From the IMG/VR virus record IMGVR_UViG_3300037042_000775, positions 1-28,017 of that record: a DNA stretch of 28,017 bases, one strand, 5' to 3'. Under the pieces are notes generated by a model. That model did no database searches and was not told the DNA's origin. It saw only the letters and a list, made by a program, of their open reading frames with translations. This document shows, piece by piece, positions 990 to 8,204 of the stretch; the stretch's first letter is position 1; each line of letters opens with the position of its first letter. A program made the position numbers and the translations under genes. The DNA is from a virus.

Positions 990-1217
990 CTATTTTTTAA
1001 TAATCGTCCATCCCATTGCCTTAATCACCTTCTTTATACTCGGATCAGGCATAAGACCCTTCGCTATATGCACCTCCTTCTTGCTCTTGTATATCGTTAC
1101 GATCGTGAGGCTGCGCGGTATCATCCACGTACCCCCATCGTTCATGGTTTCAAACAGGCGTTGTGTCCATGCAACTGAGTTCTTCATACCCTCTGCTGTG
1201 TCTATGTCGTAGTTCAT
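990..1217 (-). CDS. Unassigned 75-residue protein
   Basis: The start ATG 1217 overlaps the upstream TGA (ATGA), and AGGAG lies just before it inside the upstream gene. The product is mixed alpha/beta with a basic C-terminus ending TIIKK. It has no cysteine motif and no signal or membrane segment. The visible segment VTIYKSKKEVHIAKGLMP suggests two beta strands. I do not recognise the family. Confidence 0.6.
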   Translation of the reverse strand: MNYDIDTAEGMKNSVAWTQRLFETMNDGGTWMIPRSLTIVTIYKSKKEVHIAKGLMPDPSIKKVIKAMGWTIIKK

Positions 1218-1690
1218 TCATCTTCTCCTGTTAATGCTTCAATGTTGCGGCGTGTTTGCGCCTCTTGCTCTAACGCTTCTTTAATGCGGTTTCTTATAGG
1301 CGCTTTACGTTTTGCGTAATCGCCTGCGTTGTAGCTGGGTTTTAATGTCCCTGCGGCTTTTGCTTTATCTCTCCACTCTTTATGTTTAGCATTTTTGTTA
1401 GCTATTACTTCTGGTTTTTTGCTATATGTTTTTACGTATTCTTTTTGATACTCCTTGTTTTTTTCCGTTGCTCGGTATAGCTTTCGCATAGCCTTGTGCT
1501 TAGGTGTTTGACTATATGCTTTTTGCATCAGCGCAATTTTTTCTGGGTTTCTTGCAACATACCGTGCGTGTGTTTCTCTATTTTCTTTAAGATAGCATTC
1601 ATGGCATTTAGACTGCAAAATACTTCCCGATCTTGTGAGTCGGTACTCACTATCCTCTTTTGTTTCCCCGCATTTGCTACAGGTTTTCAT
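1214..1690 (-). CDS. Zinc-ribbon protein, HNH-endonuclease-like N-terminus
   Basis: This 158-residue protein starts at ATG 1690, with GGAG six bases upstream. Two CxxC pairs (C4/C7 and C29/C32) in MKTCSKCGETKED and KCHECYLKENRE make a compact zinc ribbon of the type often found at the N-terminus of phage HNH or homing-type endonucleases. The rest is Lys/Arg-rich and probably helical, with no HNH or GIY-YIG catalytic motif, so a nuclease activity is not supported. It is more likely a nucleic-acid-binding protein or a decayed endonuclease. The gene is visibly more AT-rich than its neighbours, which suggests separate acquisition. Its leader carries the 1709-1736 hairpin. Confidence 0.7.
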   Translation of the reverse strand: MKTCSKCGETKEDSEYRLTRSGSILQSKCHECYLKENRETHARYVARNPEKIALMQKAYSQTPKHKAMRKLYRATEKNKEYQKEYVKTYSKKPEVIANKNAKHKEWRDKAKAAGTLKPSYNAGDYAKRKAPIRNRIKEALEQEAQTRRNIEALTGEDE

Positions 1691-1744: not shown

Positions 1745-2875
1745 TTACTCTGCGTACGCAGCATCAAACAGTGTAGCCAACACCGAGTCAACATCGTACT
1801 TACCCACCATATCCATAGCTGCCGATATGGCATCGTCGGTTATCCGCTTGCGGTCGATCAGCTTGATAGCCAAGTCCCTGTCTTCAGGGTACACACTCTC
1901 AGCAATCAGTTCAACGAGGTTGGTCTTGAACCCCTGCTCCGCATCAAGCAGACACTCAAGCAGGTACTCGTCGTCGTCAAGCGTATCTAACTTGTCCTCA
2001 TCGAACATTGTCTCCGTGCCCTTGGGGATGTTAGGCGCTGTCTTCCACCACGATGTGTGACAGAAGTCGTAGCTGTCCGTAATAGGTTCAGGCTCCACAA
2101 ACGTAGGGTCACGCTCGGTAGGCAGTCCATCCCAATCAATCGCTATCACCGCAGCCGCAAGCCTGTCGAAGTGCTCAATGTCCAACTCCTCACGCTCACT
2201 GTGCTCATGGTCGTAGCCACATGAGATATTCGTGCACTCGGGGATGATGTCAACGAACTCGGCTGTGTCCGTATACACGCCCGTATCATCAGGTGAGTAC
2301 ATGAATGCATCACAACTTGAATTAAACGCATCAGCCAGCCCTTGCGCAAAATCATCAGAGCAGCACCTACCCCACCCCTGATGGGAGATAACGCTGTCTG
2401 TGCCCCGCCTGTCGAACGCTATGGCCCTATTGAACTCAGCCAGTAGCTGTGGATACTCCCGCGCCAGATGCTTGGCACCAATACCCCCGACCTCCTCGCC
2501 TTGCGTGAACACATAGTACCCCGGCACACCAGCGTGCAGCAGGTGCATGAGCAGCGCACATCCCACGCCATCATCAGCACCCAGCGCAGCCCCGTCCGCA
2601 TACCACATCGTCTTGGTCTTGCGAATCTTGTTGGCCCCTGTTTTGCGGTGCACCGTATCGACGTGTGCTACGAACAGTGTCTTGTGATCGCTGTGCGTAC
2701 GATTGTCAACGTGCAAGTTACCCGCCACGTCGAGCCACACCCCGGCATACAGGTGAGCAGGCAAGTGGTCATACAGCCACTCGGTGAATACCAACACGGC
2801 CATCGTGTTGTGTGGGCGCATCATTGAGAGCGCACGGTTAAGCGTCTTGTAAAGCATTGTGTGTTTCTTATTCAT
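1745..2875 (-). CDS. M20/M28-like zinc metallopeptidase
   Basis: This is a 376-residue predicted co-catalytic metallopeptidase resembling M20 peptidases such as PepT and related M28/M42 enzymes. The expected ligand order is present: H71 and D73 in AHVDTVH, D101/D102 in GADDGVG, catalytic E127 and E128 in GEEVGG, D155 in FDRRG, and H223/H225 in YDHEHS. The catalytic domain fills about residues 25-250. The final 120 residues are an acidic, helical extension I do not recognise. No signal peptide is seen, so it should act in the cytoplasm on peptides or small amide substrates. ATG 2875 overlaps the upstream stop by 8 bases; ATG 2857 is an alternative start. Neither has a strong ribosome-binding site. 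Confidence 0.85.
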   Translation of the reverse strand: MNKKHTMLYKTLNRALSMMRPHNTMAVLVFTEWLYDHLPAHLYAGVWLDVAGNLHVDNRTHSDHKTLFVAHVDTVHRKTGANKIRKTKTMWYADGAALGADDGVGCALLMHLLHAGVPGYYVFTQGEEVGGIGAKHLAREYPQLLAEFNRAIAFDRRGTDSVISHQGWGRCCSDDFAQGLADAFNSSCDAFMYSPDDTGVYTDTAEFVDIIPECTNISCGYDHEHSEREELDIEHFDRLAAAVIAIDWDGLPTERDPTFVEPEPITDSYDFCHTSWWKTAPNIPKGTETMFDEDKLDTLDDDEYLLECLLDAEQGFKTNLVELIAESVYPEDRDLAIKLIDRKRITDDAISAAMDMVGKYDVDSVLATLFDAAYAE

Positions 2876-4316
2876 TTGTTTCTTTCGTTAATTGTTCAAT
2901 AGCTGTCATGCCTGTATCGACGGGAGTCCACACCGTTTTGGTGTCCTCCTCGTCATCCTCCATCTCATACTCATCGGCATGGTCCTCGTGGATCGTCTTG
3001 CCGCACTTGGTCGTCACGCTGTCGCAGTCGCTGTTCGCATAGTAGTCATGGCTGTGCTCACACTGCCAAGCCTCGTCCGTCAAGCACCACTCCCCATTCT
3101 CTAGCTCTACGCAGTCCTCACGCATCTCGTACTCACCATCGACGGTGTGGCAGATGTCATCGCTGTCTACCCTGTGCCATTCGTGATTGCTCTCAATGCA
3201 CACCGCATTATCCTGATGGCAGTACTCCCCATTCTCTAGCTCTACGATGTCATTGTCGGACAGGTACTGATCGTGATAATACTCGCCGTCAACCTCAATC
3301 ATGTCGTCGTCATTTACCACATACTGATTACCTCGCCGTCCATAAACATAGGTGTAATGATCGTGCCTGCAACAATCACAGATACGCACATCCTCATGCG
3401 CCCCTGCCCAATGCCCATCACCATCCCGGATGTTGGCACCGCAGTCCTCACAACTCTCACAATTAACCTCATCGGCTGAACCGTCCGTGTTGTCGCACTT
3501 GTAATTAGCCTCGCCCTCGTCATCCGTGACACGGAAGTAATTGCCACAGTCAATGACATACTTTTCAGCACCGTCCAGATACGGAGCCACGAACCCATTG
3601 TCATTGCGTGCACCTAGCTTGAGTAGCTTGTACCCACTCCAGCCTGATGCCTTGCTGTAGCCCTCCTCTTGCAGCCACGCATTGAGACGCTCATCAGAGT
3701 CCGAATAGCCACTGCCCTCACGTCCCCGGTATGTGCGGACATACTGCTCATCGTTGAGCAACGCACGCCCCGTGTACTTACCACCCTCCATCGTGCATGC
3801 CATGTGCCAGCCAAACTTCGGGTCATACACCTCATACGGATGCTTGTCGTACAGGTACGCGAACCCCTCCTCATCCCCAGACATGCACGAGCTAGGCCCG
3901 TTGACGATGATATCTAGCATCTCCTCCATCGTTCGCACGATCTTGAACGTAGCCTCCACGTATAGAGCCGCGATGTTGCGTATCTGATCTGAGCGCAGCC
4001 TGCTGAAGTGCCGTGTCAGGTACTTGGACACAGATGTCACGGTCTGACGATCCGCTTCACCATGCTCCTCCGTGCGGGTGTAGGCAACCTTGTGATTACC
4101 CTCCTTGCTGTCGTGCGGCCACTCCAACACCAACTCCTGCCAGTTGTCAGGCTTCTCCAATGAGATAGCCCGGTACACCGCATCGTGCATACGCCCCTCG
4201 CTGAACTGCTCACGACGATGCCAGCTACGGCTGTGCAACAGGATGTGCGCTAACTCCCTCATCCAGTTATGGATTAGGTTGTGCGATTTTGTACTCGTCC
4301 ACATTTCGTTACTCAT
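2868..4316 (-). CDS. Large Cys/His-rich acidic protein with internal repeat
   Basis: This 482-residue protein starts at ATG 4316, eight bases after AGGAG. Residues of about 90-235 form a conserved-looking globular part containing PSSCMS, HPYEVYDPKFGW and an LNAWLQEEGY segment. This pattern occurs in unassigned phage proteins. After residue 250 the protein is rich in Cys, His, Asp and Glu: C286/C289/C292 and C313/C315/C316 probably bind zinc. Two VELENGE(Y/W)C units 45 residues apart show a duplication. The C-terminus is strongly acidic. It could be a zinc-binding scaffold or a protein-interaction or DNA-mimic type factor, but no activity is established. The leader carries palindrome 4372 and hairpin A. 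Confidence 0.75.
   Translation of the reverse strand: MSNEMWTSTKSHNLIHNWMRELAHILLHSRSWHRREQFSEGRMHDAVYRAISLEKPDNWQELVLEWPHDSKEGNHKVAYTRTEEHGEADRQTVTSVSKYLTRHFSRLRSDQIRNIAALYVEATFKIVRTMEEMLDIIVNGPSSCMSGDEEGFAYLYDKHPYEVYDPKFGWHMACTMEGGKYTGRALLNDEQYVRTYRGREGSGYSDSDERLNAWLQEEGYSKASGWSGYKLLKLGARNDNGFVAPYLDGAEKYVIDCGNYFRVTDDEGEANYKCDNTDGSADEVNCESCEDCGANIRDGDGHWAGAHEDVRICDCCRHDHYTYVYGRRGNQYVVNDDDMIEVDGEYYHDQYLSDNDIVELENGEYCHQDNAVCIESNHEWHRVDSDDICHTVDGEYEMREDCVELENGEWCLTDEAWQCEHSHDYYANSDCDSVTTKCGKTIHEDHADEYEMEDDEEDTKTVWTPVDTGMTAIEQLTKETNE
3089..3246 (-). repeat. In-frame direct repeat inside the Cys-rich gene
   Basis: An identical 23-base segment occurs at 3089-3111 and 3224-3246, exactly 135 bases (45 codons) apart and in the same frame. 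It encodes VELENGE in both copies, followed by YC or WC. The flanking units share CHxxD/E spacing but have diverged. This suggests an old tandem duplication of a 45-residue module with one segment held constant. Confidence 0.7.
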
Positions 4317-4339
4317 TTTTAATTCTCCTACTTGCTAGT

Positions 4340-4368
4340 GTGATCTGAGACGGCAGATCACTAACCGT
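4340..4368 (-). promoter_or_regulatory. CCGTCT leader hairpin, copy A
   Basis: Minus-strand order: ACGG (4368-4365), TTA, stem GTGATCTG, loop CCGTCT, stem CAGATCAC (8 perfect pairs), then ACTAGCAAGTAGGAG leading to the start at 4316. It lies directly after palindrome 4372-4390 in the direction of transcription. ACGG can pair with CCGT of the loop. Confidence 0.75.
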
Positions 4369-4371
4369 TTT

Positions 4372-4390
4372 GTGTGTCACCGTGACACAC
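4372..4390. promoter_or_regulatory. GTGTCACNGTGACAC palindrome, site 1
   Basis: A perfect 19-bp odd palindrome, GTGTGTCACCGTGACACAC, centred on 4381. It abuts the TAA of the gene at 4391-4678 with no gap and precedes hairpin A. An odd palindrome of this size fits a dimeric repressor operator. Confidence 0.75.
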
Positions 4391-4678
4391 TTAATCCCAA
4401 GGCAAGGTGTCACGACTCCCGCTGTAATTTCCATAGTCGTAGTTGGTCATCACCAACGTCTCAATGGCGTACTTATCCAGCCTATCTCCCCGAAGGAAGT
4501 CGCCCAACATGACACGCCCGTTGATGTACCTGCTCAAGTCAGAGAAAGCAATCCAGCTTTGCATCCGACCTAAATCGGACATGTCACCCGTCAACTCAGC
4601 GCTGTTGTCCCTCACCTCGGCAACCATGCGCTGCCCATCGGCTTCGTACTGCCGACCTGTGTTCCATTGATGTTTCAT
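4391..4678 (-). CDS. Small conserved phage protein (WNTGRQY type)
   Basis: A 95-residue protein starting at ATG 4678, which overlaps the upstream TGA (ATGA) and follows AAGGAG. The N-terminal WNTGRQYEADGQRMVAEV and the middle AFSDLSRYINGRV resemble a short beta-rich phage family usually encoded among early genes; its function is unknown. It is the last gene of a four-gene overlapping run (5254 to 4391), and its stop codon touches palindrome 4372-4390. Confidence 0.7.
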   Translation of the reverse strand: MKHQWNTGRQYEADGQRMVAEVRDNSAELTGDMSDLGRMQSWIAFSDLSRYINGRVMLGDFLRGDRLDKYAIETLVMTNYDYGNYSGSRDTLPWD

Positions 4679-4896
4679 TTCGCTTCTCCTTCAAGTCGTG
4701 CAATACCCATTTCAATGTCATCCATCACCTGCACCAGCACATTCTTGCGGTTGCCTTTGTAGCCCATGCTTCGCAGCATGGACAGTGCGCTAGGTGCTCG
4801 GCTCCTGCTCATCCCGTTTATCTCCAGCTTGAGCATCGTGCGCAGCGTGCACAGCCTGAACAGTTCTATCTCTGCTGGTGTAGTAATCATGCTCAT
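4675..4896 (-). CDS. Unassigned 73-residue protein
   Basis: The frame is open further upstream, but ATG 4896 is chosen because it overlaps the upstream stop as ATGA and has AGGAG seven bases before it. The product is helical, with ELFRLCTLRTMLKLEINGMS at about residues 10-29 and a basic middle (GYKGNRKNVLVQVMDDIE). It has one cysteine and no membrane segment. No function can be assigned. Confidence 0.65.
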   Translation of the reverse strand: MSMITTPAEIELFRLCTLRTMLKLEINGMSRSRAPSALSMLRSMGYKGNRKNVLVQVMDDIEMGIARLEGEAK

Positions 4897-5078
4897 TTCA
4901 TTCTCCTCATTGGTTGTGCTTTCATCTTCTCCAACTCCCACGTCACGGCCATACGCTCGGCTGTATCCTGCGCCTTGCGCTTGCGCTCGGCTGTCACGTG
5001 GCGGTTCATGAACTCATCCCGAAGGATGCGAAGCGCAGCCATTTCAGTGGCCTTGATCGTCATGGTTTTGTACTTCAT
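4893..5078 (-). CDS. Unassigned 61-residue basic helical protein
   Basis: ATG 5078 is preferred over the GTG one codon earlier because GGAGG sits six bases before it and it overlaps the upstream TGA (TGATG). The product is almost entirely charged helix (LRDEFMNRHVTAERKRKAQ, then ERMAVTWELEKMK) and could form a short coiled coil. No family is recognised. It is part of the overlapping 5254-4391 run, so it is probably made together with its neighbours. Confidence 0.65.
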   Translation of the reverse strand: MKYKTMTIKATEMAALRILRDEFMNRHVTAERKRKAQDTAERMAVTWELEKMKAQPMRRMK

Positions 5079-5254
5079 CACAGTCCTCCAGTGGAATGGA
5101 TAACCTGCTGCCCGTCCTTCTCGGCCAACATCACTGTGACCTCGTATGACTTGCGGGTTTTGAATATGGCCGCAGCTTTTTGCTGTGCCTCATAACTTGA
5201 GGTCGCATGGACCTCGATCTGCTTGCCTCGGTAAAAAGCGATATAACCGTTCAT
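5078..5254 (-). CDS. Small conserved phage protein (MNGYIAFYRGK type)
   Basis: A 58-residue frame starts at ATG 5254, six bases after GGAG, and ends in TGA at 5078-5080. MNGYIAFYRGKQIEVHA, SYEAQQKAAAIF and SYEVTVMLAEKDGQQVIHST match a short protein family seen in many phages of Proteobacteria; no function is established. Predicted fold: strand, strand, helix, strand. It opens a four-gene unit whose leader carries hairpin B and palindrome 5308-5326. Confidence 0.75.
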   Translation of the reverse strand: MNGYIAFYRGKQIEVHATSSYEAQQKAAAIFKTRKSYEVTVMLAEKDGQQVIHSTGGL

Positions 5255-5275
5255 CTTCTTCTCCTACTTGCTAGT

Positions 5276-5304
5276 GCAGCCTGAGACGGCAGACTGCTAA
5301 CCGT
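5276..5304 (-). promoter_or_regulatory. CCGTCT leader hairpin, copy B
   Basis: Minus strand: ACGG, TTA, stem GCAGTCTG, loop CCGTCT, stem CAGGCTGC. Compared with copy A, several stem positions change on both sides and pairing is kept, with one U-G wobble. It is followed by ACTAGCAAGTAGGAG and the gene starting at 5254. Confidence 0.75.
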
Positions 5305-5307
5305 TTT

Positions 5308-5326
5308 GTGTGTCACGGTGACACAC
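5308..5326. promoter_or_regulatory. GTGTCACNGTGACAC palindrome, site 2
   Basis: A perfect 19-bp palindrome, GTGTGTCACGGTGACACAC, centred on 5317. It abuts the TAA of the gene at 5327-5467 and leads into hairpin B with the same spacing as site 1 and hairpin A. Confidence 0.75.
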
Positions 5327-5467
5327 TTATTTTTTACTACGCTCTTCTTCGTAGTCGTAGTCACTGCACCCTTCCGAGGGCCAATCGCCACTACTTACAT
5401 CACCATAGTGGTAGTGTCCACAGTGGTAGCAGTACTCTTCACCATCGTCTTCAGTTTCTTCGTCCAT
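5327..5467 (-). CDS. 46-residue acidic Cys/His protein
   Basis: This short frame starts at ATG 5467 one base after the upstream TGA, with GGAG six bases before it, and stops at palindrome 5308-5326. The product is very acidic (MDEETEDDGEEYCYHCGHYHYGD at the start, DYDYEEERSKK at the end). C13 and C16 with nearby histidines (YCYHCGHYH) make a plausible half zinc knuckle; a third cysteine lies at about residue 34. Small acidic proteins like this can bind host enzymes, but there is no direct evidence for that here. Confidence 0.65.
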   Translation of the reverse strand: MDEETEDDGEEYCYHCGHYHYGDVSSGDWPSEGCSDYDYEEERSKK

Positions 5468-5468
5468 G

Positions 5469-5672
5469 TCAGTCTCCGATCATGTTGAGTGCGTCTTGCG
5501 CTATCTTGCGCCACGCCCCCTGATTGATGATGGGCAGTCCATCCCAGTCCTTCGCGTCCAGTTGCTGGACGGCGTACTGGCATATCGCCTCCAGCACGAA
5601 CGCTTCATTTAGAACACCGGACTCCATGAACCGTTTGACCAATGTGGTCTTGTTTACTTTTGCTTTACGCAT
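5469..5672 (-). CDS. Unassigned 67-residue protein
   Basis: Starts at ATG 5672, six bases after GGAG; the leader contains hairpin C. The N-terminus is basic (MRKAKVNKTTLVKRFM), followed by helices around residues 20-40 (NEAFVLEAICQYAVQQL). DWDGLPIINQGAWRKIAQ follows and is amphipathic. It is compact and helical, without membrane segments. No family is recognised. Confidence 0.65.
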   Translation of the reverse strand: MRKAKVNKTTLVKRFMESGVLNEAFVLEAICQYAVQQLDAKDWDGLPIINQGAWRKIAQDALNMIGD

Positions 5673-5693
5673 ATCAATCTCCTACTTGCTAGT

Positions 5694-5722
5694 GTGACCT
5701 GAGACGGCAGGTCACGAACCGT
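5694..5722 (-). promoter_or_regulatory. CCGTCT leader hairpin, copy C
   Basis: Minus strand: ACGG, TTC, stem GTGACCTG, loop CCGTCT, stem CAGGTCAC, with eight perfect pairs. Relative to copy A, one pair changes from T-A to C-G on both sides. It is followed by ACTAGCAAGTAGGAG and the gene starting at 5672. Confidence 0.75.
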
Positions 5723-5727
5723 TTTAA

Positions 5728-5777
5728 AAGTGTGTCACCCTATCTTCGGGTAAACCCTGTGTCACCGTGACACACTT
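5728..5777. promoter_or_regulatory. Palindrome site 3 with an extra half-site
   Basis: The full palindrome TGTGTCACCGTGACACA is at 5758-5774, next to the stop of the gene at 5777. A further half-site AAGTGTGTCAC lies at 5728-5738, in inverted orientation to the distal half GTGACACACTT (5767-5777). The two outer half-sites are separated by 28 bases that contain the inner half-site and a small ACCC/GGGT hairpin. It looks like an expanded version of sites 1 and 2. Confidence 0.65.
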
Positions 5778-6598
5778 TATTCTTTTGGTAGCCGTAGCTT
5801 CTCCAGCGCAGCCATGTGCTTGACTTTCCATTCCTGCATGGCTGTGCGCCTGACCTGTGCGTACTTACGCACGTTGGCCCGGTTCTTGTCCCGTATCGCC
5901 TCCTCTCGCGCCAGTATCAGCGTGTCCCGCAGCGCAAGGTTCTCAGGCGTGGGGTTGAGCATGGCGGCTTTGTCTGCCGCCCTCAACTTGTCCCTGATCT
6001 GCTCAATGACCGTTCCCGGTGGCTTAAGTGTGTCACTGGGACACACTTTTCTTTTCTTGGTGGTCACGGCAAATACGGTATCGGGAAATAGCGCCAGTGG
6101 TCGTACCTCACCCAACCCATCGAACGCTATATGGAAGCGGCGTTTGATTTCTTCAGGCAACCAATCTGCCCAATGCCGCCCTCCGTTGGGTATATTCTTC
6201 TCCTTGGCTAGTTGCATCGGTGTCTTGCCTGCCGTGTCCCGGTGATAGCGCAGCTTGTCCAGAAGTTTTTCCAGCAGGGCTACGTATGCGCGGTATGCGT
6301 CCAGCCGTTCCTGCGCCTCGCCCGTCTCTGCCTCGTAAGGCGTACCCCGTGCGTTATCCATCACCTGCTTGGCACGCCTAACCCGTGCCAGCGGTGTGTT
6401 CAAGGCAATCTCCAACTGCCTGATCATCGCCGTCCATAGCGTAGCGTGTGAGTCCTTTGTTATGCGCTCTACGCGCAGCGCCTCACGCTCGGCAAGGATG
6501 CGTTCCTTCTCGGATATGCGTAGGTCAGGGCTGTTGGGGTACAGCTTGAGGAGTGCATTGTGCACCGCATTCGGAGACAGCTTCGTCCAATTTATCAT
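5777..6598 (-). CDS. Unassigned 273-residue helical, basic protein
   Basis: The frame is open to 6679, but those first codons are encoded by a palindrome. ATG 6598 has GAGGA about seven bases upstream and is the better start. The product is largely helical: ISEKERILAEREALRVERI near the start, a long charged stretch in the middle (QERLDAYRAYVALLEKLLDK), and a basic C-terminus rich in Arg/Lys. KEKNIPNGGRHWADWLPEEI in the centre could be a small domain. Coiled coil and nucleic-acid binding are plausible; no family is recognised. It is preceded by a candidate promoter and palindrome 6663 and contains the degenerate site 6026-6048. Confidence 0.7.
   Translation of the reverse strand: MINWTKLSPNAVHNALLKLYPNSPDLRISEKERILAEREALRVERITKDSHATLWTAMIRQLEIALNTPLARVRRAKQVMDNARGTPYEAETGEAQERLDAYRAYVALLEKLLDKLRYHRDTAGKTPMQLAKEKNIPNGGRHWADWLPEEIKRRFHIAFDGLGEVRPLALFPDTVFAVTTKKRKVCPSDTLKPPGTVIEQIRDKLRAADKAAMLNPTPENLALRDTLILAREEAIRDKNRANVRKYAQVRRTAMQEWKVKHMAALEKLRLPKE
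6026..6048. promoter_or_regulatory. Degenerate palindrome inside a coding region
   Basis: Arms AAGTGTGTC (6026-6034) and GACACACTT (6040-6048) are perfect inverted repeats around a 5-base centre ACTGG, which departs from the usual ACNGT. It lies inside the 273-residue gene, where it encodes KVCPSDTL. It may be a weak binding site or a leftover of a former gene boundary. Confidence 0.5.
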
Positions 6599-6662
6599 TT
6601 TAGTTCCTCGTGGTGCATAGCGTAGTTGTTTCATGTGTATACCGTAGGTGTGTTTTTTAAGC

Positions 6663-6677
6663 GTGTCACCGTGACAC
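6663..6677. promoter_or_regulatory. GTGTCACNGTGACAC palindrome, site 4
   Basis: A perfect 15-bp palindrome, GTGTCACCGTGACAC, centred on 6670, upstream of the gene at 5777-6598. It lies about 15 bases downstream of a candidate TATAAT on the minus strand, where a bound protein would block early transcription. Confidence 0.7.
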
Positions 6678-6690
6678 ACTTTCCACCAAG

Positions 6691-6724: not shown

Positions 6725-7103
6725 TGTTCACCTTACACCCTAATCTGGTACTTAAATACCACTACTAAAGATTGCTGCCTAACATTTTCGCCACCTGTTG
6801 GGCCGCATGCACGCTAGGTTTGCGGGGTACTGTACCAAAGTATCCACTGTTTTCGGAGGTATTAAAGCACCCCCCCATATAGAGGTGTGTATAGTGTGTA
6901 CCATACTTACAGGCCCATGTGTATAGCTATATATGCCTTTATTATTATACTTTTCTTTTATATGTATATATATAGGGCTGTTTTGGTACAGTTTGCGCTG
7001 AACCCGCATGGATACTGGGTTTGCGCTAGTACGCACACTAGTACACGCACCTACGTCTGGGGCCGACTTTTTTTGGGCCAAATCTATGCATTTTATGCAT
7101 AAC
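6700..7103. other. Gene-free AT-rich region, possible origin or control region
   Basis: No convincing gene fills this stretch of about 400 bases. It holds a strongly AT-rich core (about 6885-6975, with runs such as TATATATATA and ATTATTATA), a run of seven C, and an 11-bp inverted repeat ACTGTACCAAA (6829-6839) / TTTGGTACAGT (6982-6992). GTTTGCG occurs three times nearby (about 6818, 6991 and 7019), the last two as GTTTGCGCT. An AT-rich core flanked by repeated words would suit a replication origin or a regulatory hub. A TATAAT also occurs on the minus strand at 6949-6944. Function is inferred only. Confidence 0.4.
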
Positions 7104-7118
7104 GTGTCACAGTGACAC
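7104..7118. promoter_or_regulatory. GTGTCACNGTGACAC palindrome, site 5
   Basis: A perfect 15-bp palindrome, GTGTCACAGTGACAC, centred on 7111. The TGA of the gene at 7107-7310 (7109-7107) is part of the palindrome, so the element itself ends that reading frame. Confidence 0.7.
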
Positions 7119-7310
7119 ACTTTTGTCGTCGTAGTGCAGCCTCGCGTAGCGTGCCATTGCCTTGAGTGCCACCTTGCGTGGCATCGTGTACTGCTTCGCT
7201 ATCCCACGGGCGACAGCCGCCAGCACAATGGGTGGGCAGTACGTGAGCAGGTGATGGTGCTCATGGATGATGCGGGTAGCATCGCGTTTGTTTTGGCGTT
7301 GTTGCTTCAT
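7107..7310 (-). CDS. Unassigned 67-residue basic His-rich protein
   Basis: ATG 7310 is preferred over GTG 7352 because GAGG lies eight bases upstream and it avoids overlap with the upstream gene. The product is basic (MKQQRQNKRDATRIIHEHHH) with a helical middle (PPIVLAAVARGIAKQY) and a C-terminus, SVSL, encoded by palindrome site 5. The middle segment is only moderately hydrophobic and is probably not transmembrane. A DNA-binding helix is possible. No family is recognised. Confidence 0.6.
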   Translation of the reverse strand: MKQQRQNKRDATRIIHEHHHLLTYCPPIVLAAVARGIAKQYTMPRKVALKAMARYARLHYDDKSVSL

Positions 7311-7473: not shown

Positions 7474-7612
7474 AATGATTCTCCTAGGCGCATAGATGAA
7501 ACCTATCGACGCGACTTTGCGATAGGGAATAGCCAAAGGCTATGGGATTGCGGATTCGATAGACAGGAAACGAAACCCCGGCCAAGCCCCGCTATCAGGA
7601 CTCGCCGGGAAA
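7474..7612. other. Structured noncoding segment with two tandem hairpins
   Basis: This 139-base interval upstream of the 50-residue gene has no convincing frame. It holds inverted repeats CCTATCG (7502-7508) / CGATAGG (7520-7526) and ATAGCC (7529-7534) / GGCTAT (7538-7543), placed back to back. A tRNA reading was tried and fails. It may be a structured leader or a small RNA. Confidence 0.4.
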
Positions 7613-7631
7613 CTGTGTCACCGTGACACAG
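7613..7631. promoter_or_regulatory. GTGTCACNGTGACAC palindrome, site 6
   Basis: A perfect 19-bp palindrome, CTGTGTCACCGTGACACAG, centred on 7622, two bases beyond the stop of the gene at 7634-8011. Its outermost pair is C/G where sites 1 and 2 have G/C, so the conserved core is TGTGTCAC with its inverse. Confidence 0.75.
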
Positions 7632-8011: not shown

Positions 8012-8026
8012 GATGAACTCCATTTG

Positions 8027-8043
8027 TGTGTCACAGTGACACA
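8027..8043. promoter_or_regulatory. GTGTCACNGTGACAC palindrome, site 7
   Basis: A perfect 17-bp palindrome, TGTGTCACAGTGACACA, centred on 8035, lying 15 bases upstream of ATG 8011 on the minus strand. A protein bound here would lie over the leader or promoter of that gene. Confidence 0.75.
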
Positions 8044-8204
8044 GTATCTTATGAAGGGACAGCCCCCTCACTTCGATAACTCTATTTGAACAAATGGGGG
8101 TATATCGGACACCCCACCGTGGGGGTATGCACCACTTATGACGAGGCAATGGCATGCCGCCATAAACACTGTTTCGTAGCCGCACAGAGCATTTTGTAAA
8201 ACAT
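8044..8204. other. Divergent intergenic region, left part
   Basis: No gene is supported between the leftward gene ending its leader here and the rightward promoter at 8205. A GGGGGTAT direct repeat occurs twice, at about 8096 and 8123. Between the copies lies a hairpin-capable CCCCAC / GTGGGG dyad. No clear leftward -35/-10 pair was found for the gene at 7634-8011. Confidence 0.4.

Follow-up and report, generated by a model that had tools for sequence, protein, structure and literature searches.

A repeated 29-nt element between phage genes

Many unrelated genes in several lineages of uncultured phages are preceded by a 29-nt element with the layout of an H-type pseudoknot, which probably acts in cis on translation initiation, either as an insulator or as a docking site for a factor. 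The window, i.e., the whole stretch of 28,017 nt analyzed here (G000), is a 28-kb virus record and a piece of a podovirus-like phage. Its rightward block contains the terminase, portal, and major capsid genes, and its leftward block contains mainly small early genes. The terminase is ~50% identical to those of the Pelagibacter phages HTVC027P/HTVC023P and Phage DSL-LC04. Four copies of the element (A to D) are confined to the leftward block and located on the minus strand, in agreement with the initial annotation, which had listed four copies with the order ACGG, stem, and CCGT loop.

Copy A (4368-4340, minus strand) reads ACGG TTA GTGATCTG CCGTCT CAGATCAC ACTAGCAAGTAGGAG...ATG. The 5' strand of the crossing helix S1, ACGG (4368-4365), is followed by the linker L1 (TTA, 4364-4362), the 5' strand of the long stem S2 (4361-4354), the loop CCGTCT (4353-4348), and the 3' strand of S2 (4347-4340). 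Within the loop, CCG is the 3' strand of S1 and TCT is L3. The Shine-Dalgarno (SD) sequence AGGAG (4329-4325) and the start codon ATG (4316-4314) of a 482-aa gene lie behind this copy. Copy B (5304-5276, minus strand), which has one G.U among its 8 stem pairs, precedes a gene of 58 aa (5078-5254), and copy C (5722-5694, minus strand) precedes a gene of 67 aa (5469-5672). Copy D (1736-1708, minus strand) reads ACGG TCA TCCTCGTG CCGTCT CACGAGGA, with TCA as L1, and stands before a 158-aa gene (1214-1690, minus strand) of the endonuclease family phrog_2340. As had been noted initially, this copy keeps both ACGG and CCGTCT despite its unrelated stem. The four copies share one layout with differing stem sequences, and each has an 8-bp stem. 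The linker, given earlier as 3-4 bases, is 3 nt in all four.

CCGTCT by itself shows no enrichment in the window (15 matches vs ~10 expected). The compound element, judged by its recurrence at at least ~80 phage loci with identical spacing and a full 7-8-bp stem, far exceeds chance.

Distribution of the element

The family follows the pattern NCGG-TTN-(8-bp stem)-CCGNYT. A pattern scan of IMG/VR, in which the stem was left free, returned at least 80 stretches. Real copies had a match length of 24, a stem of at least 8 bp, and an SD and start codon behind them; chance matches varied in length, and their stems had 2-5 bp. After further scans, the nonredundant set comprised 89 copies having 7 or more stem pairs, including two spurious GTDB matches. 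Identical cores were dropped and cores with a changed S1 were added, resulting in 56 distinct cores from IMG/VR phages. The order S1a-L1-S2a-S1b-L3-S2b is present in all 56 and in the loop-length variants.

From these cores, we built a covariance model in which only the hairpin was paired. It detects the element at E ~1e-7 in 1.3 Mb, where it gave 122 matches, a figure that includes repeat counts of overlapping loci. The window copies reach E values of 6e-7 to 2e-5 under this model and are themselves among its building sequences. In the weakest real matches, the loop is 5 nt (CCGAC) or 7 nt (CCGTTCT) long and CCG is intact.

At least three lineages of uncultured phages carry the element. One is the phrog_38-terminase group, which includes the window. 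The second (G008) has a T7-type head-tail connector, an internal virion protein, and a different terminase, and the third is represented by G012. In Rfam 15, no family matches at the gathering score, and none matches positions 4250-5800 at E<=10. A BLAST search of GenBank phages with a 50-nt consensus gave no match, and the 15 pattern matches in GTDB genomes included no real copy; both searches are insensitive to distant forms. Stem defects and the lack of a common context rule out the GTDB matches as host-genome copies. No matching phage element was found in the open-access literature.

Position relative to the next ribosome-binding site

The element is intercistronic and always points towards the next ribosome-binding site (RBS). 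The stop codon of the preceding same-strand gene usually lies 4-6 nt before the element, or ~20-30 nt before it where a palindrome (see below) intervenes; ~5 and ~21 nt are frequent values. On the other side, 75 of 102 copies have an SD that starts 8-10 nt past S2, and the start codon follows 13-29 nt past S2.

We propose that the element folds between the cistrons of a polycistronic early mRNA and acts on translation initiation of the following gene. The folded RNA would sit at the 5' edge of the 30S footprint, between the stop codon and the next RBS. As an insulator, it would stop upstream sequence from masking the SD and shield the SD from upstream ribosomes or nucleases. Alternatively, a single trans-acting factor would dock on the element at each gene of a small phage regulon. 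We consider the two functions almost equally probable, with the insulator slightly favored. The predicted accessibility of the SD is 0.48 with the element and 0.40 with its 29 nt shuffled (56 leaders, Wilcoxon p ~1e-4), computed without the pseudoknot pairing. The higher value with the element mildly supports the insulator function.

An intercistronic position in operons would also suit a processing or stability element, in which the knot guards a 5' end left by endonuclease cleavage or stops a nuclease from moving between cistrons. There is a precedent in T4, where RNase E cuts the gene 32 mRNA near its pseudoknot (PMC3014915). Nevertheless, the near-fixed spacing to the SD indicates initiation, and a conserved cleavage site was not seen upstream of the element. 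Hence, we regard this explanation as rather unlikely.

The crossing helix S1

The initial annotation had proposed a pseudoknot between ACGG and CCGT. Across the 56 cores, the proposed outer pair of A1 with loop base 4 is A:U in 30, G.U in 5, and unpaired in 21; the fourth pair was therefore rejected. C2 pairs with loop G3 in every core (C:G 53, U:A 2, A:U 1, broken 0). The two G:C pairs are invariant and thus uninformative either way.

We scanned IMG/VR exhaustively for double mutants in which both C2 and loop G3 are changed. Nine combinations are possible, of which three are Watson-Crick. Four stretches were obtained; three are real copies, and all three are Watson-Crick. L158 and L161 carry ATGG:CCAT and L159 carries AAGG:CCTT, with stems of 8-9 bp and an RBS and ATG present. 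These are the paired changes in relatives by which the initial annotation had proposed to check the knot. L158 and L161 share an orthologous position behind one upstream gene, so they may represent a single event and L159 a second.

Two sites that change independently are expected to show far more single than double changes. The scan for mutants of the loop base only returned one stretch (L162), and that for the upstream base only returned one as well (L163), a chance match. L162 (8788-8816) combines ACGG with CCCTCT, giving a C.C mismatch in S1, and has a 9-bp stem without an SD. It could be a true S1 mismatch. As this copy is doubtful, there is no clear instance of a loop change without an upstream match, which had been named at the outset as evidence against the knot. 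It comes from an 87-kb phage record that is otherwise dissimilar, where a stop codon lies on one side of it and the ATG of a gene for an HNH endonuclease on the other; an endonuclease gene thus follows both L162 and copy D of the window.

When the loop was left free in 40 whole phage records, the core CCG was found in all real copies except L158, L159, and L161. The double-mutant scan for the middle G:C pair gave chance matches alone (stems 2-5 bp). A paired change at this pair is at most possible in L022 near 9588, which has ACAG:CTGT and a 7-bp stem, lies at an atypical distance from the SD, and was not reported by the covariance model.

On these comparative grounds, the knot is a 3-bp CGG:CCG helix, with S1 supported by covariation at the C:G pair in a few events. 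Hence, the initial proposal stands for CGG:CCG but not for the outer A:U pair. The loop length is 5, 6, or 7 nt across copies while CCG is constant, which fits three pairs. In H-type pseudoknots, the nucleotides after S1 have to cross the shallow groove. A three-pair S1 leaves 3 nt (range 2-4) for this crossing, and so the fourth position is free of pairing. In the proposed fold, CGG would pair with the first three loop bases CCG, the 3-nt L1 (UUN) would cross the deep groove of the 8-bp S2, L3 would comprise 2-4 nt ((N)YU), and S1 would probably stack on S2.

The bases of S1, L1, and L3 are strongly conserved in the 56 cores. This could reflect a protein that recognizes two single-stranded stretches, the upstream CGGUU and the CCGNYU loop, i.e., a hairpin operator with no knot. 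Such operators occur in phages, e.g., at T4 gene 43 (PMC3014915), and both the loop and CGGTT are strongly conserved here. We judge this explanation unlikely because of the paired ATGG:CCAT and AAGG:CCTT changes with hardly any singles, and because CCG stays constant while the loop length varies from 5 to 7.

The long stem S2

Seven of the eight S2 pairs are altered on both sides in the 56 distinct cores, with pairing in 99.6% of the cells. Scored over the whole structure, covariation reaches 0.510, compared with 0.143 for shuffled and at most 0.123 for slid controls. Among nonredundant copies, the imperfect S2 pairs are G.U in 12 cases and A.C in one. This bias indicates that S2 folds in the RNA of the motif strand, which reads towards the next gene. 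As far as sequence comparison can demonstrate it, S2 forms at the RNA level.

The same bias bears on the idea that ACGG-N11-CCGT is a DNA-level inverted repeat, a dimeric operator for a DNA-binding protein. Paired changes in both halves would be expected from such a dyad, too. However, the excess of G.U over A.C shows RNA-type selection on the interleaved 8-bp stem, the outermost pair is not conserved, and the orientation towards the next RBS is constant. A DNA operator at this site is thus very improbable.

All distinct cores but one have U as the first base of L1 and U-A as the second S2 pair. The exception, ACGGCCTGTAGCCCGCCGTTTTGGGCTAC, which is common to L133 and L142, has CC instead of TT in L1 and C-G as S2 pair 2. 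The geometry of an H-type fold puts the beginning of L1 in the deep groove, beside the second S2 pair. Owing to this proximity, U.A-U and C+.G-C triples would be isosteric. The change in L133/L142 may be the swap of a major-groove triple; it comes from one lineage and is a lead, not proof.

Palindromes at gene boundaries

The palindrome GTGTGTCACNGTGACACAC is present in eight near-identical copies at gene boundaries of the leftward block, five of them without a pseudoknot. As GTGTGTCACCGTGACACAC, it lies 3 nt 5' of copy A (4372-4390) and, identically, 3 nt 5' of copy B (5308-5326); further copies are at 5757-5775, 6025-6046, 6658-6679, 7099-7120, 7610-7631, and 8023-8044. Relatives carry their own palindromes at the corresponding place (GTGTTGCACNGTGCAACAC, GTGGGACANNTGTCCCAC, GGGTCACAGTGACCC, and others), sometimes several kinds per phage. 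The palindromes show no G.U bias and are orientation-neutral, which suggests that they are probably DNA operators separate from the pseudoknot. Possibly, they belong to a co-diverging repressor/operator system. We rejected the palindrome as an obligatory part of the RNA unit because it is absent in many copies of the element, five window palindromes are knot-free, and a G.U bias is lacking.

Genes behind the element and possible function

The genes behind the element fall into ~30 unrelated clusters. The biggest are homologs of the 482-aa gene (24), a MLKLTHIRE-type family of 60-66 aa (15), and a family of 50-70 aa (10). The 482-aa gene behind copy A (2868-4316, minus strand) matches phrog_6980 weakly, and its homologs also lie downstream of the element at 23 other copies. 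Distant homologs occur in Autographiviridae as well, e.g., in Klebsiella phage fHeKpn01, where the homolog is virion-associated. The 482-aa protein has no Pfam family, and its AlphaFold model (pLDDT 80, pTM 0.44) gave no significant PDB match. The Foldseek matches are acetyltransferase-like but weak (E 0.02 or worse) and not interpretable. An M28-type peptidase gene comes after this early gene.

H-type pseudoknots also occur among small riboswitches (e.g., preQ1-I), and a protein or metabolite sensor had been suggested initially. We dismiss a metabolite riboswitch as extremely unlikely because the ~30 unrelated families of small genes have no metabolic theme, the SD lies outside the fold at a near-fixed distance without an expression platform, and Rfam gave no match.

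Docking of a factor is supported by base conservation in S1, L1, and L3 that exceeds the requirements of folding, and by the regulon-like repetition before unrelated genes in several lineages. More tentatively, this minimal 29-nt knot might define a novel class of cis-regulatory RNA in several phage lineages, tagging otherwise unrelated intercistronic genes as one regulon and gating their translation gene by gene. One phage or host factor, or the 30S subunit directly, might recognize it via the CGG:CCG helix and loop triples. A knot with covariation in both helices, standing before many unrelated genes and outside Rfam, would provide a small testable model of initiation, addressing how a pseudoknot adjoining the SD influences this step. 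The element may also serve as a portable 29-nt part for expression work.

Comparison with known pseudoknots

The gene 32 pseudoknot of T4/T2/RB69 is an autogenous translational operator; in the T4 mRNA, RNase E cuts 71 nt upstream of the start codon and the pseudoknot is at -67 (PMC3014915). Like our element, it belongs to a polycistronic phage mRNA, where an H-type pseudoknot stands 5' of an RBS. However, it lies 67 nt from one start codon instead of ~13-29 nt, and it precedes an A+U-rich coating region and the gene of a ssDNA-binding protein instead of many unrelated genes. Its S1 is unlike the 3-bp S1 found here. Distance, genes, size, and multiplicity exclude membership in this operator class. 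No Pfam or PHROG match to an ssDNA-binding protein was obtained among the window genes searched.

STAXI (RF01728), from Enterobacteriales, is likewise a small repeated pseudoknot candidate tied to mobile or phage-type genes; it is made up of two or three pseudoknots in tandem, frequently with UUCG loops (PMC2864571). The present element differs in occurring as single copies before RBSs and without UUCG. Judged by the Rfam model, which it does not match, the element is not STAXI.

The E. coli rpsO (S15) operator resembles the element as a pseudoknot at initiation on the 30S subunit. Its SD belongs to the fold, whereas here the SD lies 8-10 nt outside the fold in most copies and no ribosomal protein gene follows. 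ToxI RNA of type III toxin-antitoxin systems also consists of short H-type pseudoknots (~30-40 nt). It is a tandem repeat adjoining a toxin gene, unlike the single intercistronic copies here, at which no such gene was noted.

A different structured leader is conserved within the pseudoknot-carrying phages. It consists of a hairpin, CAAGCGCA-GCRYGC-TGCGCTTG, followed by GGGGCGATCTTGCCC, an SD, and ATG, and is found in L011 (~8992), L017 (~5723, minus strand), L050 (~11046), and L062 (~14118).
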